Source of the DNA: Nitrosospira sp. Nsp11
GTDB lineage: Bacteria > Pseudomonadota > Gammaproteobacteria > Burkholderiales > Nitrosomonadaceae
Length of the DNA stretch: 64,000 nt
Direction of reading: 5' to 3'
NCBI RefSeq assembly: GCF_900142705.1
Contig: NZ_FRBV01000007.1
Location: 1-64,000, forward strand
The notes under the pieces were generated by a model. The model was not told where the DNA came from. It worked only from the letters and a program-made list of their open reading frames with translations, and made no database searches. Below, piece after piece: positions 5,900-14,124 of this stretch (its first letter is position 1; the number at the start of each line of letters is the position of its first letter). The translations under genes were made by a program, and so were the position numbers.

Positions 5900-6658
5900 C
5901 TAAAGCCGTACCTCAATGCCATGTTCCGCCATATACCCTTTGGCCTGAAGTATACTGTAATCGCCATAGTGAAAAATACTGGCCGCCAGAACTGCGTCGG
6001 CATGGCCCTCTACGATTCCTTCCACCAGGTGATGTAAATTACCAACGCCGCCACTCGCGATCACCGGCACATCCACCGCGTCGGATACAGCGCGAGTCAG
6101 TGCCAGATCAAACCCGTTGCGAGTACCATCCTTATCCATGCTGGTAAGCAATATTTCGCCTGCCCCCAGCGATTGCAGTTTTTTTGCCCACTCGACCGTA
6201 TCCATGCCGGTCGCCTGACGTCCCCCGTGAGTGAATACCTCCCAGCCGTTTTCCACCCGCTTGGCATCTATCGCCACTACGATGCACTGAGAACCGTAAC
6301 GATCCGCGGCATCCGCCACCAGTCGAGGATTCTGCACCGCCGAAGTGTTGATGCTTACTTTATCGGCACCCGCATTCAACAGCCTTCGCACATCTTCCAC
6401 CTTGCGCACCCCGCCACCCACTGTTAACGGAATGAATACCTGAGCTGCAACTTCCTCAATGATACGAAGAATCAAGTCACGGTTATCAGAACTGGCAGTG
6501 ATGTCGAGGAAGGTCAGCTCATCCGCTCCCTGATCACCGTAACGGCGTGATATTTCGACAGGATCACCCGCATCCCGAAGCCCGACAAAATTAATGCCTT
6601 TGACAACACGGCCATTTGTTACGTCAAGGCAGGGAATAATACGCTTGGCAAGACCCAT
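5900..6658 (-). CDS. hisF: Imidazole glycerol phosphate synthase, cyclase subunit HisF
   Basis: This 252-residue (beta/alpha)8 barrel is the cyclase half of IGP synthase. It combines ammonia from HisH with PRFAR to give IGP and AICAR. The N-terminus [20 protein letters not shown] carries the catalytic Asp (LDV), and [20 protein letters not shown] contains the second. Phosphate-binding loops VGGGVRK and ASGGVGN are present. Length and motifs are standard. It follows hisA after 228 bp, a wider spacing than between the upstream his genes. Confidence 0.97.
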
Positions 6659-6886: not shown

Positions 6887-7654
6887 TCAGGAAAGGGATT
6901 TATCGCGGGAGATTTTCATACTTAGCTCATCCGCCAATGCTTGCGCCCGTTTGAAATCCAGAGCGCCTTCATACAGGGCGCGTCCCGTAATTGCACCCAT
7001 GATACCTTCCAACTCGAGGTCGCAGAGCGCTTTCACATCGTCAAGATTGCCGATGCCCCCGCTGGCAATGACGGGAATGGTAAGTGCCCTGGCCAGTTCC
7101 ACCGTGGCCTCCACATTGACGCCGCTTAACATGCCGTCACGCCCGATATCAGTATAAATGATCGCTTCGACCCCATAATCCTGAAATTTTTTGGCGAGAT
7201 CCACGACGTCGTGACCAGTAACTTTGGACCAGCCATTGACGGCCACCTTCCCGTCCTTCGCGTCCAGACCTACCATGATATGGCCGGGGAAAGCGTTGCA
7301 GGCATCGTGCAGGAATCCTGGCGTCTTCACCGCTGCGGTGCCGATGATAATGTAAGTTATGCCATCGTCGAGATAACGCTCGATAGTTTCGAGGTCACGT
7401 ATGCCACCCCCGAGTTGTGTCGGAATTTCGTCACCAATAGCCTCAACAATATCACGTATGGCCGGTTCATTTTTTGGCCTGCCGGCAAACGCGCCATTCA
7501 GGTCCACCAGATGCAATCGGCGCGCGCCCTGGCTCAGCCAATGGCTGGCTATGGCGCCGGGGTCTTCGGAAAACACCGTGGCGTTTTCCATCACGCCCTG
7601 TTTCAGGCGTACGCACTGGCCGTCTTTCAGGTCTATCGCAGGAATAATCAGCAT
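6887..7654 (-). CDS. hisA: Phosphoribosyl-formimino-AICAR-P isomerase
   Basis: A 255-residue barrel enzyme converting ProFAR to PRFAR, homologous to HisF. The start is placed at [20 protein letters not shown], the conserved N-terminus with the catalytic Asp in AIDL; an upstream in-frame extension of 20 residues is unsupported. [12 protein letters not shown] and [10 protein letters not shown] are the two phosphate-binding loops, and [10 protein letters not shown] carries the C-terminal catalytic Asp. It lies 34 bp downstream of hisH. Confidence 0.96.
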
Positions 7655-7688: not shown

Positions 7689-8384
7689 TTAGGTTTGGAT
7701 CGGGAAGAGGTCACGCGTGGACTTGACTATCCCTTCCTGAAACTGAAACGGTTCCCATCGCACAAAATTATTCAGCAGCGTCAACCCTGCGTCATGGCTT
7801 TTTTCCGGGTGAAACTGGACGGCAAAAATATTATCCTTGGCCACCGCGCTAGTAAAAGAAAAGGGATAGTTGGTGGTAGCTGCCGTCGATTCCGGGTTGG
7901 CGGTTTCCACATAATAACTATGCACGAAATAAAAGCGTGCATCGCTGGGGATATCTTTCCACAAGGGATGTTCAATGGCTTGGTGAACCTGGTTCCAGCC
8001 CATGTGCGGCACTTTGAATCGCAGCCCGCTGCTATCTGCCACCGACGTGGAAGGAAAACGCCGCACAGTGCCGGTCACAATACCGAGGCCTTCTACGTTG
8101 CCTTCTTCGCTGCTGTCGCACAGCATTTGCAGGCCGATGCAGATACCGAGAAAAGGTTTGCTCATCGCTGCATAGCGCACCGCGCTGCGCAATCCGCGTT
8201 TATCCAGTTCGCGCAGGCAGTCGGGCATTGCGCCTTGACCTGGAACCACTACACGCCCAGCCTTCCGCACTACCTCCGGATCGTCGGTGATGACAATGGA
8301 GGCGGTCGGCGCGACATGTTCCAGCGCTTTGGACACCGAGCGCAAATTACCCATGCCGTAGTCAACGATTGCAATATCAGTCAT
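7689..8384 (-). CDS. hisH: Imidazole glycerol phosphate synthase, glutaminase subunit HisH
   Basis: A 231-residue class I glutamine amidotransferase that delivers ammonia to HisF. The N-terminus [20 protein letters not shown] is typical. The nucleophile Cys is in [12 protein letters not shown], and the His/Glu pair is in [13 protein letters not shown]. The sequence [11 protein letters not shown] carries the oxyanion-strand region. It is 26 bp from hisB and 34 bp from hisA. Some 20 residues at the C-terminus follow the usual end of the domain and are not conserved to my knowledge. Confidence 0.96.
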
Positions 8385-11556: not shown

Positions 11557-12201
11557 TCATTTGATGATTGCCGCAGAGAAAGCTTCCAGCATTGGCTGTA
11601 TCGCTTCCCGCTTCAATTTCAGTGCTGCCTGATTGATGACCAGTCGCGCCGAAATCGGCATGATCTCTTCCACTGCCTTCAGATGGTTGGCCTTTAGCGT
11701 GCCACCGCTGGAAACCAGATCCACAATCGCGTCCGCCAATCCTACCAGCGGCGCGAGTTCCATCGAACCGTAGAGCTTGATAAGATCCACGTGCATGCCT
11801 TTTTCGGCAAAGTGTTCACGTGCTGTTTGTAAATATTTCGTTGCGACTCGCACTCGCGCTCGCCGGCTCACGGCCTCTTCGTAATTGAAATCATCGCGCA
11901 CCGCCACCATCATGCGGCAGCAGGCAATATTCAAGTCCAGCGGCTGATAAAGCCCTGCGCCGCCATGCTCCAGCAGTACGTCCTTTCCCGCGATGCCCAT
12001 ATCCGCGGCGCCGTACTGCACGTAAGTGGGTACATCCGAGGCTCGTACAATGATAAGCCGCACGTCACCACGATTGGTCGCAAGGATCAGCTTACGCGAC
12101 GTTTCAGGATCATCTAGCGCGACGATACCGGCTGCTTTCAACAACGGCGCAGTATCGTCAAAAATGCGGCCCTTGGAAAGGGCGATCGTAATGCTCGTCA
12201 T
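11557..12201 (-). CDS. hisG: ATP phosphoribosyltransferase, short form
   Basis: First and committed step of histidine synthesis. At 214 residues this is the short HisG form that lacks the C-terminal regulatory domain and in known systems needs the HisRS-like partner HisZ for activity and feedback inhibition. The N-terminus [18 protein letters not shown] and the PRPP-binding region [18 protein letters not shown] are visible. No hisZ lies in the window. In many betaproteobacteria murA directly precedes hisG; here murA lies about 39 kb away and hisG is preceded by a non-coding region. Confidence 0.95.
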
Positions 12202-12627: not shown

Positions 12628-12764
12628 TTCACAATTTCTTCACAATTTCTTCACAATTTCATCACACTTAATTCTTGATACTTCACATCTTCTTCACAAG
12701 TACTTCACATTAAATTCACACTTACTTCACACTTACTTCACGTTTACTTCACATTTCCTTCACA
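12628..12764 (+). repeat. Thirteen-unit TTCACA array with 11-bp pitch
   Basis: Cores start at 12628, 12639, 12650, 12661 (ATCACA), 12672 (TTCTTG), 12682, 12693, 12704, 12715, 12726, 12737 (TTCACG), 12748 and 12759. Every step is 11 bp except one of 10 bp. Ten of the thirteen cores are exactly TTCACA, while the 5-bp spacers vary (ATTTC, CTTAC, AGTAC, TTAAA and others). Core conservation with variable spacers at about one helical turn suggests tandem binding sites on one DNA face rather than a plain minisatellite. Direct repeats at 11 bp are how PhoB/PhoP (OmpR-family) regulators bind. The array ends 66 bp before the porin-like ATG. Confidence 0.9.
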
Positions 12765-12830: not shown

Positions 12831-13955
12831 ATGCCACTAAAGTTTGGAACAAATAATAGCGTTAATAGAGGTTGGATAAGCGGTACTAAAAAACTTTTCG
12901 GTCTCTTTCTGTTTCTTGTGACAGCCTGTATGTCTTCTGCCGTACTTGCGAAAACAGACAGCGAGCTTAAGAAGAGGCTCGAAACCCTGGAAGCAAGGAT
13001 TCTGGAGTTGGAAGCGCGTTTGGAGAGTAAAGGGGGGCAAGGGGATCGAAATACCGTGAGCACAGATCACGGTGTCGGCAAGGAAAAATTACACGATACC
13101 GTGACGGTGCAGTCTTCTGCTTCGCCCGCGCAAACAGGTAACGAGTTCAAGAAGAAGCCGGAAGCCGTGGGAACAAAAGTTGCAAACGTGGAAAAACCGG
13201 TGGCGGGCGCAGGATGGCAGGATGCCGATGGTGGAGGTCACGGCCTTGACAGGAAAAAATTTCATGGTGGCGTGACCTTGAAGCAGGATGCGTTCTTTGG
13301 TTTTCAAACCATACTCGATGCAGAATATGAAGTCCTCGACAATATCGACTTCACTTTTTATAGCTGGCTATGGACGAGTCCCAATTTCGGCCGCAGCCGG
13401 GTGGTTTCCGGTCCGAACGGCACTCAGGTCGATGCTGGTGGTAACGGGCTGTGGACTGAGGTCGGCATGGGTCTGAATTTTCACTTTCTCAACCATGCAT
13501 TAAGTATCAATCCCCAGATAGGCATGCTGAACGGCGCCTTATTATCCAGCAAAATCGTCGGCAGGGGTATTCGGGCTGGGGAAGGCGTGGTGCCCAGTAT
13601 GACGATAAACTATAATGACGACCATTTTACCGGGCAGGCGTATCTTGCCTACTATATGGCTATCCGCGATGAGCGGGCCAGGGATTTCATCCATAACTGG
13701 ATCAGCCTCGGTGTCAAACCGGCGCTGTTCAATTTTAAAAATACACCGGTCAGTTCCGTAGGCGTTCACTGGGAGCATCTGCGATTCCATAAAGACAGGA
13801 TAGAAGGAAATACCGGGACGGTTTATAACTGGATAGGTCCCTATATCGAATTTGCGCTGCCTATGAATCTCGCCCTGCGCTTCGCGGCTGGTGCTGATCT
13901 CAAGGGAGACGTGTCCAAGGAATTCTATCAAGCCAGCATCAAGGTTCATTTCTAG
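12831..13955 (+). CDS. Predicted outer-membrane beta-barrel protein (DUF6733-like)
   Basis: The 374-residue product starts with a signal peptide (hydrophobic core LFGLFLFLVTACMSSAVLA, cleavage expected after AVLA near residue 40). A short coiled coil follows (about 42-68, KKRLETLEARILELEARLE), as in several trimeric or murein-associated outer-membrane proteins. The rest (about 140-374) alternates hydrophobic and polar residues in beta-strand style and ends in KVHF, the terminal Phe recognised by the BAM machinery. From memory the barrel resembles DUF6733, whose function is unknown. A substrate cannot be assigned. The ribosome-binding site is weak (A-rich). The gene sits 66 bp after the TTCACA array, which is the likely control region. 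Confidence 0.75.
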   Translation: MPLKFGTNNSVNRGWISGTKKLFGLFLFLVTACMSSAVLAKTDSELKKRLETLEARILELEARLESKGGQGDRNTVSTDHGVGKEKLHDTVTVQSSASPAQTGNEFKKKPEAVGTKVANVEKPVAGAGWQDADGGGHGLDRKKFHGGVTLKQDAFFGFQTILDAEYEVLDNIDFTFYSWLWTSPNFGRSRVVSGPNGTQVDAGGNGLWTEVGMGLNFHFLNHALSINPQIGMLNGALLSSKIVGRGIRAGEGVVPSMTINYNDDHFTGQAYLAYYMAIRDERARDFIHNWISLGVKPALFNFKNTPVSSVGVHWEHLRFHKDRIEGNTGTVYNWIGPYIEFALPMNLALRFAAGADLKGDVSKEFYQASIKVHF

Positions 13956-13958
13956 AGC

Positions 13959-14124
13959 TAGCAGCCTGTCGGACTTAAAGAATCGCAGCGAAAAAGTGAC
14001 TGGGTGAGGCCAGATTTTGAGGATTTGAAGGCCAATAGTTATTCTATTGGTCCAAAAAACAGCGAAATATCAAACCGGCCAGACGCTTTTGCAGCCGATT
14101 TCCTTTAAGTCCGACAGGCTACTA
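13959..14124. repeat. MITE-like inverted-repeat element, family B copy 1
   Basis: The left end TAGCAGCCTGTCGGACTTAA (from 13959) and the right end, whose complement reads TAGTAGCCTGTCGGACTTAA (to 14124), form long terminal inverted repeats that continue imperfectly for about 40 bp. The centre contains CCAATAGTTATTCTATTGG, itself a dyad. The same layout occurs at 52661-52834. It starts 3 bp after the stop codon of the barrel gene and has no coding capacity. It is probably a non-autonomous mobile element that may also act as a transcription terminator. Confidence 0.8.

Follow-up and report, generated by a model that had tools for sequence, protein, structure and literature searches.

Why does a gene for a putative outer-membrane barrel in an ammonia oxidiser stand behind a long, phased run of one short DNA motif? 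The question is raised by the window, a stretch of 64,000 nt from Nitrosospira sp. Nsp11 (contig NZ_FRBV01000007.1), in which the core TTCACA recurs on a lattice upstream of a gene of the DUF6733 family (Table 1). The cores start at positions 12628, 12639, 12650, 12661, 12672, 12682, 12693, 12704, 12715, 12726, 12737, 12748 and 12759, with the step from 12672 to 12682 as the sole 10-bp step and all others of 11 bp. Exact TTCACA is found at 10 of the 13 positions, the others reading ATCACA (12661), the very degenerate TTCTTG (12672) and TTCACG (12737). Between the array end at 12764 and the ATG of the DUF6733 gene at 12831 lie 66 bp. The divergent hisG gene on the other side is not thought to be part of the array system.

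Table 1. Positions of the array, its parts and its neighbours in the window.
Feature	Positions	Strand	Basis or remark
hisG, divergent neighbour	11557..12201	-	start ~430 bp from the array
Array, TTCACA-N5, 13 lattice positions (pitch 11 bp, a single step of 10 bp)	12628..12764	+	sequence, lattice scan, TRF
Upstream block, four units (TTCACA x3, ATCACA), proposed activator sites	12628..12666	+	sequence; role proposed from geometry elsewhere
Degenerate lattice position TTCTTG	12672..12677	+	ATAACG in the same slot of G097, G098, G099, G101 and G102
GATACT, candidate -10 hexamer (4/6)	12677..12682	+	begins 16 bp past the first base of unit four and bridges the 10-bp step
Downstream block, eight units (seven TTCACA, one TTCACG)	12682..12764	+	sequence; role inferred
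DUF6733 (PF20507) gene, 374 aa	12831..13955	+	Pfam match E 1.7e-57, structure model

The array stands far above what chance produces. Its lattice score of 32.5 is to be set against a maximum of 7.0 in 1000 local dinucleotide shuffles and of 5.0 in 20 shuffles of the whole window, and the window outside the array scores at most 4.0 on both strands. When fixed periods from 7 to 15 are scanned, period 11 scores 23 and the other periods at most 6. A looser two-unit test finds 12 matches in the window, 10 of them inside the array (shuffle mean 4.3, largest 9), and TRF recovers the same array. The 13 positions, their 11-bp rhythm with one 10-bp step and the ten exact cores, as described in a first-pass annotation of the same DNA, are thus confirmed. 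Direct repeats about 11 bp apart on one face of the DNA are the arrangement of operators of the OmpR/PhoB family, and the array is very likely a real operator array.

The spacers tell a second part of the story. They had been taken at first pass to be all different, which is wrong: ATTTC occurs three times consecutively and CTTAC twice, and therefore some units are probably recent duplicates. Inside the array, with the degenerate unit excluded, cores have a mean pairwise identity of 0.944 and spacers one of 0.50. Arrays of 7–13 lattice positions are present in all ten DUF6733 promoters of the same genus, where the last unit starts 62–86 bp before the ATG and the lattice scores range from 7.5 (G113, weak) to 32.5. 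Four of these promoters (G097, G098, G099 and G102) align without gaps and were compared column by column, the other six of the ten being left out; variable columns number 8 of 60 in the cores and 22 of 50 in the spacers (Fisher p = 0.0005), and the core changes mostly spare the TCAC centre. Units are also gained by duplication, as additional steps of two units (22 bp) set the G101 array apart from that of its nearest kin. The earlier claim of selection on core and phase is supported by these columns. The argument then made against a minisatellite was in part founded on the wrong premise about the spacers; between species, cores vary less than spacers. Loss of phase and core in close relatives, with units multiplying as in a neutral repeat, had been named as refuting that reading: loss is not seen, the array being kept in ten of ten promoters (weakly in G113), although the number of units does change.

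The protein encoded behind the array has an N-terminal hydrophobic segment, a coiled coil and a putative C-terminal beta-barrel ending in Phe. Its structure model contains long N-terminal helices and 14 strands, but with a mean pLDDT of only 57, and a Foldseek search with this model places OmpG and FapF on top, with query TM-scores of 0.30–0.39 across the top ten. The earlier wording ‘porin-like’ is fair; the model is too weak for a function call. DUF6733 matches occur in 12 of 125 family genomes, nine of which belong to the genus of the window and one of which (G099) has two copies. Right after the DUF6733 stop codon, a 17-bp inverted repeat (window positions 13963–14120; AGCCTGTCGGACTTAAA at 13963 and its complement at 14104) encloses about 120 bp and resembles a large terminator or else a small remnant of a mobile element.

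The 3.2-Mb genome of the window has no second place with three exact TTCAC at 11 bp. Exact TTCAC pairs number 16, nine of them in the array, versus four for the reversed pattern, and looser triples with at most three mismatches are found at 17 places versus six reversed. Sites of this genome outside the window are few and weak. A scan for repeat runs in relatives, as proposed at first pass, shows that the TTCAC-N6 motif recurs throughout the family: three exact TTCAC in phase are present in 56 of 125 genomes (reversed control 0 of 125), and four TTCACA with at most three mismatches in 87 of 125, with reversed-control matches only in the window genome (two) and in G077 (one). The matches listed by a fourfold TTCAC-N6 scan of genome_contigs come from mixed taxa, many with plainly repetitive spacers, and are excluded from these counts. 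In one unrelated genome (L149, an uncultured Bacilli bacterium), a lattice of about 15 TTCACA-like positions has diverse spacers.

Only three OmpR-family DNA-binding regulators are encoded in the window genome, namely PhoB, a CpxR-like protein and a third regulator, RR3, which comes with the kinase HK3. PhoB scores above the NCBIfam cut-off of TIGR02154. RR3 contains the Pfam domains Response_reg and Trans_reg_C and reaches the cut-off of none of the 25 NCBIfam families shown. The RR3–HK3 locus (G000:C19, ~88.5–99.6 kb) is located beside hemE and inorganic-carbon (bicarbonate) transporter genes. In the structure model of HK3, of mean pLDDT 67, a mixed helix/strand segment lies between two long helices; the model gives no ligand.

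Presence of the motif follows presence of RR3. Orthologues of RR3 (at least 68% identity) are found in 104 of 125 genomes; among the 21 RR3-minus genomes, 18 are without a match at E 1e-40 and three (G014, G032 and G053) have only matches of at most 47%. Matches to the relaxed four-unit pattern are present in 85 of the 104 RR3-plus versus 2 of the 21 RR3-minus genomes (Fisher p 4e-10, on counts that ignore kinship) and, within genus g3, in 60 of 74 versus 0 of 11. No four-unit match was found in 19 of the 104 RR3-plus genomes. The two RR3-minus genomes with arrays are G124, which is 51% complete, and G107, where hemE has no match at E 1e-42. Each of the other 47 genomes in the set of 48 searched does have hemE, adjoining RR3, so the RR3 region is probably missing from the G107 assembly. 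A search for HK3 in 13 of the 21 RR3-minus genomes gave a best identity of 37%. The DUF6733 promoters of three RR3-less genomes (G014, G018 and G032) are all without an array, with scores of 2–3.

These distributions bear on the reading in which the array is a PhoB operator, i.e. a very long pho box in front of a phosphate-regulated porin gene. PhoB is present in the genome, and pho boxes consist of 11-nt direct repeat units, with a core GTTCACC in Streptomyces, according to passages of PMC4415409. The E. coli-type core CTGTCAT given in the same passages is not matched by the array core TTCACA, the repeats follow RR3 and stand at promoters linked to RR3–HK3, and 19 of the 21 RR3-minus genomes are without arrays, yet 20 of the 21 hold a protein aligning with an OmpR-type regulator. 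A PhoB operator is therefore unlikely. The first-pass annotation had pointed to PhoB/PhoP as members of the OmpR family; an OmpR/PhoB-family regulator is indeed the best candidate, PhoB/PhoP themselves find no support and the evidence points to RR3.

RR3 and the motif are also linked at the RR3–HK3 locus itself. A relative of sbtA, sulP, dabA or dabB lies within ~11 kb of RR3 in 35 of the 40 loci fetched; the exceptions are G009, G019, G047 and G075, whose loci contain no such gene, and G021, where the end of the contig is reached. The window genome has, one after another, RR3, HK3, repeats, sbtA, sbtB, repeats, sulP and uspA, and the carbon genes are confirmed by Pfam (Sbt_1, P-II, Sulfate_transp and Usp), the assignment of carbon-gene families by Pfam covering genes of G108, G031, the window genome, G097 and G104. 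In 22 of 39 loci, an exact TTCAC-N6-TTCAC lies no more than 800 nt past HK3, versus none for the reversed control and seven elsewhere in 625,664 nt. The short form of the site, after HK3 and before sbtA, sulP or dabA, is TTCAC-N6-TTCAC[A/G]; the window genome and its nearest kin have a looser four-position lattice. A relaxed pattern, drawn up once the promoter of the window genome itself had been inspected, brings 29 of 39 loci into alignment regardless of the transporter that follows, and all 29 share T+11, TG+13/14, A+17 and T+21. In G112 and G077 the site is found just past 800 nt, still before sbtA or dabA. All 31 loci whose carbon genes are co-directional have a site between HK3 and the transporter, versus 0 of 8 others; the eight are the four without a carbon gene plus G096, G103, G104 and G115, whose dabA/dabB relatives are on the opposite strand, and they have no site anywhere in the fetched stretch.

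At the HK3-linked sites, an extended -10 element (TGnTAnnnT-like) begins 16 bp downstream of the first base of the last repeat. Of 111 unique family sites, 29 have TGnTAnnnT at offset 16, and none of the other offsets from 8 to 35 has it in more than two; 23 of these 29 cases are HK3-linked and six stand before dabB relatives. They overlap only partly with the 29 aligned HK3-linked loci, and many HK3-linked promoters are mutually homologous. A first promoter score, limited to 450 bp, gave lattices at p<=0.05 for 15 of 21 sbtA, 6 of 13 sulP, 2 of 6 dabB and 4 of 10 dabA genes; it missed the sbtA site of the window genome, which lies further upstream, and was replaced by the later site scans. 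Thus, two marks of OmpR-type operators are present, a linked winged-helix regulator and a fixed distance from the last repeat to the -10 element (29 of 39 loci, plus two), and the predicted geometry of the HK3-linked sites is that of a PhoB-like activator.

Other arrangements exist at some loci. In four congeners (L300, L302, L303 and L304), the carbon genes are opposite to RR3–HK3 and repeats are absent; these genes may be served by another promoter. TTCACA repeats also occur after sulP/uspA (L297 at 8120–8158 with RR3 on the plus strand, L298, L299 and L301) and after sbtA/sbtB (L305), in all five oriented against the transporter genes and with no obvious gene in that direction.

Because the motif tracks RR3 and stands at RR3–HK3-linked carbon promoters, the array before the DUF6733 gene is most likely an RR3 operator, and we regard this prediction as probably correct. 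The regulon is wider than carbon uptake, because many arrays adjoin other genes or none of the reference genes: among 30 array loci (one per genome), a carbon-transporter or HK3 gene lies within 1.5 kb in eight, an FMN oxidoreductase gene in five, a TolC-like gene in three and none of the reference genes in 14.

Several individual arrays deserve a description of their own. In six g3 genomes (L026, L040, L041, L044, L048 and L084), an array (mostly TTCACAAAAAGTTCACA...) is found near an FMN oxidoreductase gene, and most of the six also have a gene for a small membrane protein near the array. In G009 (L081), TTCACA arrays of nine and eight units (6262–6382 and 7122–7231) lie ~740 bp apart, with no ORF of at least 90 aa listed between them. 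The window genome has a five-unit array at G000:C34:482129-482178 (L067 8130-8184), with similar ones in several congeners and no obvious downstream gene of at least 90 aa. At G000:C34:610362-610400 (L069 7369-7390), two exact TTCACA and weaker lattice positions go with a BBP2-type porin gene (PF07642), and a TATGTTAAGTT element stands downstream of them, in lattice phase.

Where would transcription of the DUF6733 gene start? Candidate -10 elements were taken as hexamers with at least 4/6 matches to TATAAT, A at position 2 and T at position 6. In the window promoter, no hexamer of at least 4/6 is found 15–18 bp after the last unit of the array; counted from the penultimate unit, 4/6 hexamers stand at +15 and +18. 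Inside the array, a hexamer of at least 4/6 stands at +16 or +17 from some unit in all ten same-genus promoters. It reads TATACT in six (G097, G098, G099, G101, G102 and the second G099 copy), TATAAT in G094, where it follows a different unit, GATACT in the window and in G095, and TAAATT in G113. The GATACT of the window is without the TG of an extended element. Because the lattice is AT-rich and each same-genus promoter contains one to six candidates, some of them closer to the 3' end of the array, we can only infer that the DUF6733 promoter is embedded in the array, and the chances are about even.

With an embedded promoter, eight units would be transcribed, which makes it conceivable that the repeats act in the 5' leader RNA, for instance via a repeat-binding protein. 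At the HK3-linked targets, however, the repeats lie upstream of the -10 element, and the pitch equals one turn of the DNA helix; a role in RNA is accordingly very unlikely.

If RR3 is the regulator, its phosphorylated monomers would bind the 11-bp repeats head to tail, one per helical turn, and bound RR3 would, like PhoB, make contact with sigma-70 RNA polymerase at position -35. Before the DUF6733 gene, this lattice would be extended to 13 positions, with the -10-like hexamer at the same distance after four units. These four units upstream of the in-array -10 would activate transcription of the gene. The eight downstream units would overlap or follow the transcription start, where they may reinforce cooperative occupancy or, when RR3-phosphate is high, prevent initiation and so create a two-phase response. 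The DUF6733 barrel would then be the envelope member of a regulon devoted at least partly to inorganic-carbon supply, although a role of the barrel itself in carbon supply is a guess by association and rather doubtful. It is tempting, and more tentative still, to propose that ammonia oxidisers control carbon uptake via a PhoB-like two-component system, and that the 13-position lattice with its embedded promoter is a two-phase switch with counted sites, turned on as RR3 phosphorylation rises and then turned down as the downstream sites fill, and tuned over evolution by gain and loss of 11-bp units. The titrating-decoy and nucleoid-nucleation roles, also considered at first pass, are less likely because the same motif stands at a fixed promoter geometry elsewhere.

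Among the matches listed in the literature, titles and abstract openings mention no two-component system that regulates these transporters in ammonia oxidisers, and a term search of the main text of a carbon-toolkit review (PMC10880623) returned neither ‘two-component’ nor ‘LysR’. If the proposal is true, the control of inorganic-carbon import in nitrifiers acquires a candidate regulator, together with a DNA site that can be read and a set of targets. In addition, the arrays form a natural series of 7–13 units before one gene family, with ten promoters, in which the effect of the number of operator sites can be asked.

Three further readings are very improbable. An envelope-stress switch for the barrel gene, operated by the CpxR-like regulator, has in its favour an envelope target and the presence of such a regulator in the window genome; of the 48 array-bearing genomes tested, only six have a close orthologue of that protein (at least 79%) and two others one of about 50%, and 40 of the 48 are indicated to have arrays without it (at an E cut of 1e-42, by which weaker orthologues would be missed), so that this operator is hardly credible. 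A neutral tandem repeat of 11-bp units would account for the identical spacers, the varying number of units and the expansion by two units in G101. Core and spacer vary unequally between species, and the same motif stands at unrelated genes with a fixed promoter geometry and tracks RR3, all of which makes a minisatellite scarcely plausible. As for a DnaA-titrating or nucleoid-protein array, TTCACA shares CACA with the DnaA box (consensus TTWTNCACA) and three array 9-mers match this consensus at 8/9, yet these are the only three in 13 positions with none at 9/9, the spacer positions on which DnaA binding would depend differ from species to species, and the motif is associated with RR3 and with -10 elements, whereas DnaA is to our knowledge expected in every genome, which leaves this reading exceedingly improbable. 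PhoB, CpxR, CreB and DnaA are all less likely as binders of the array than RR3, and were set aside, as was the minisatellite.

Among known systems, the predicted RR3 operator resembles those of the PhoB type. Two to four repeat units are usual at PhoB/PhoP sites, and PhoB-type activators cover the -35 region, with a distance from the last repeat to the -10 element like that of the HK3-linked sites. The arrangement is the same, but the HK3-linked sites have an extended -10. Like the array, the pho box of PhoB and the PHO box of Streptomyces PhoP are built of head-to-tail repeats with an 11-nt pitch, and the Streptomyces core contains TTCAC, as given in part of PMC4415409. They differ in that synteny and co-occurrence indicate another regulator here, and in that the array reaches 13 positions. 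The cre/blr tag of CreBC/BlrAB, TTCACN6TTCAC in an excerpt of PMC4689548, has practically the same pair of half-sites at the same spacing, and this sequence is contained in the array. In contrast to CreBC, the regulator here is only 36.5% identical to E. coli CreB and the targets differ. CreB was rejected as the regulator, since RR3 (153), PhoB (212) and the CpxR-like protein (183) all score below the NCBIfam CreB cut-off of 273, and CreD (PF06123) has no match in the window genome, with a positive E. coli control.

OmpR acts at ompF through upstream activating and distal repressing sites. The resemblance to the DUF6733 gene lies in an OmpR-family regulator, an outer-membrane barrel as target and several sites around one promoter; ompF has far fewer sites and no strict 11-bp lattice, and repression at the array is only hypothetical. 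Finally, LysR-type regulators control carbon-concentrating genes in cyanobacteria and chemolithoautotrophs. The RR3 loci contain the same kinds of targets (sbtA, dabAB and SulP transporters), but the regulator linked to them is a two-component system.
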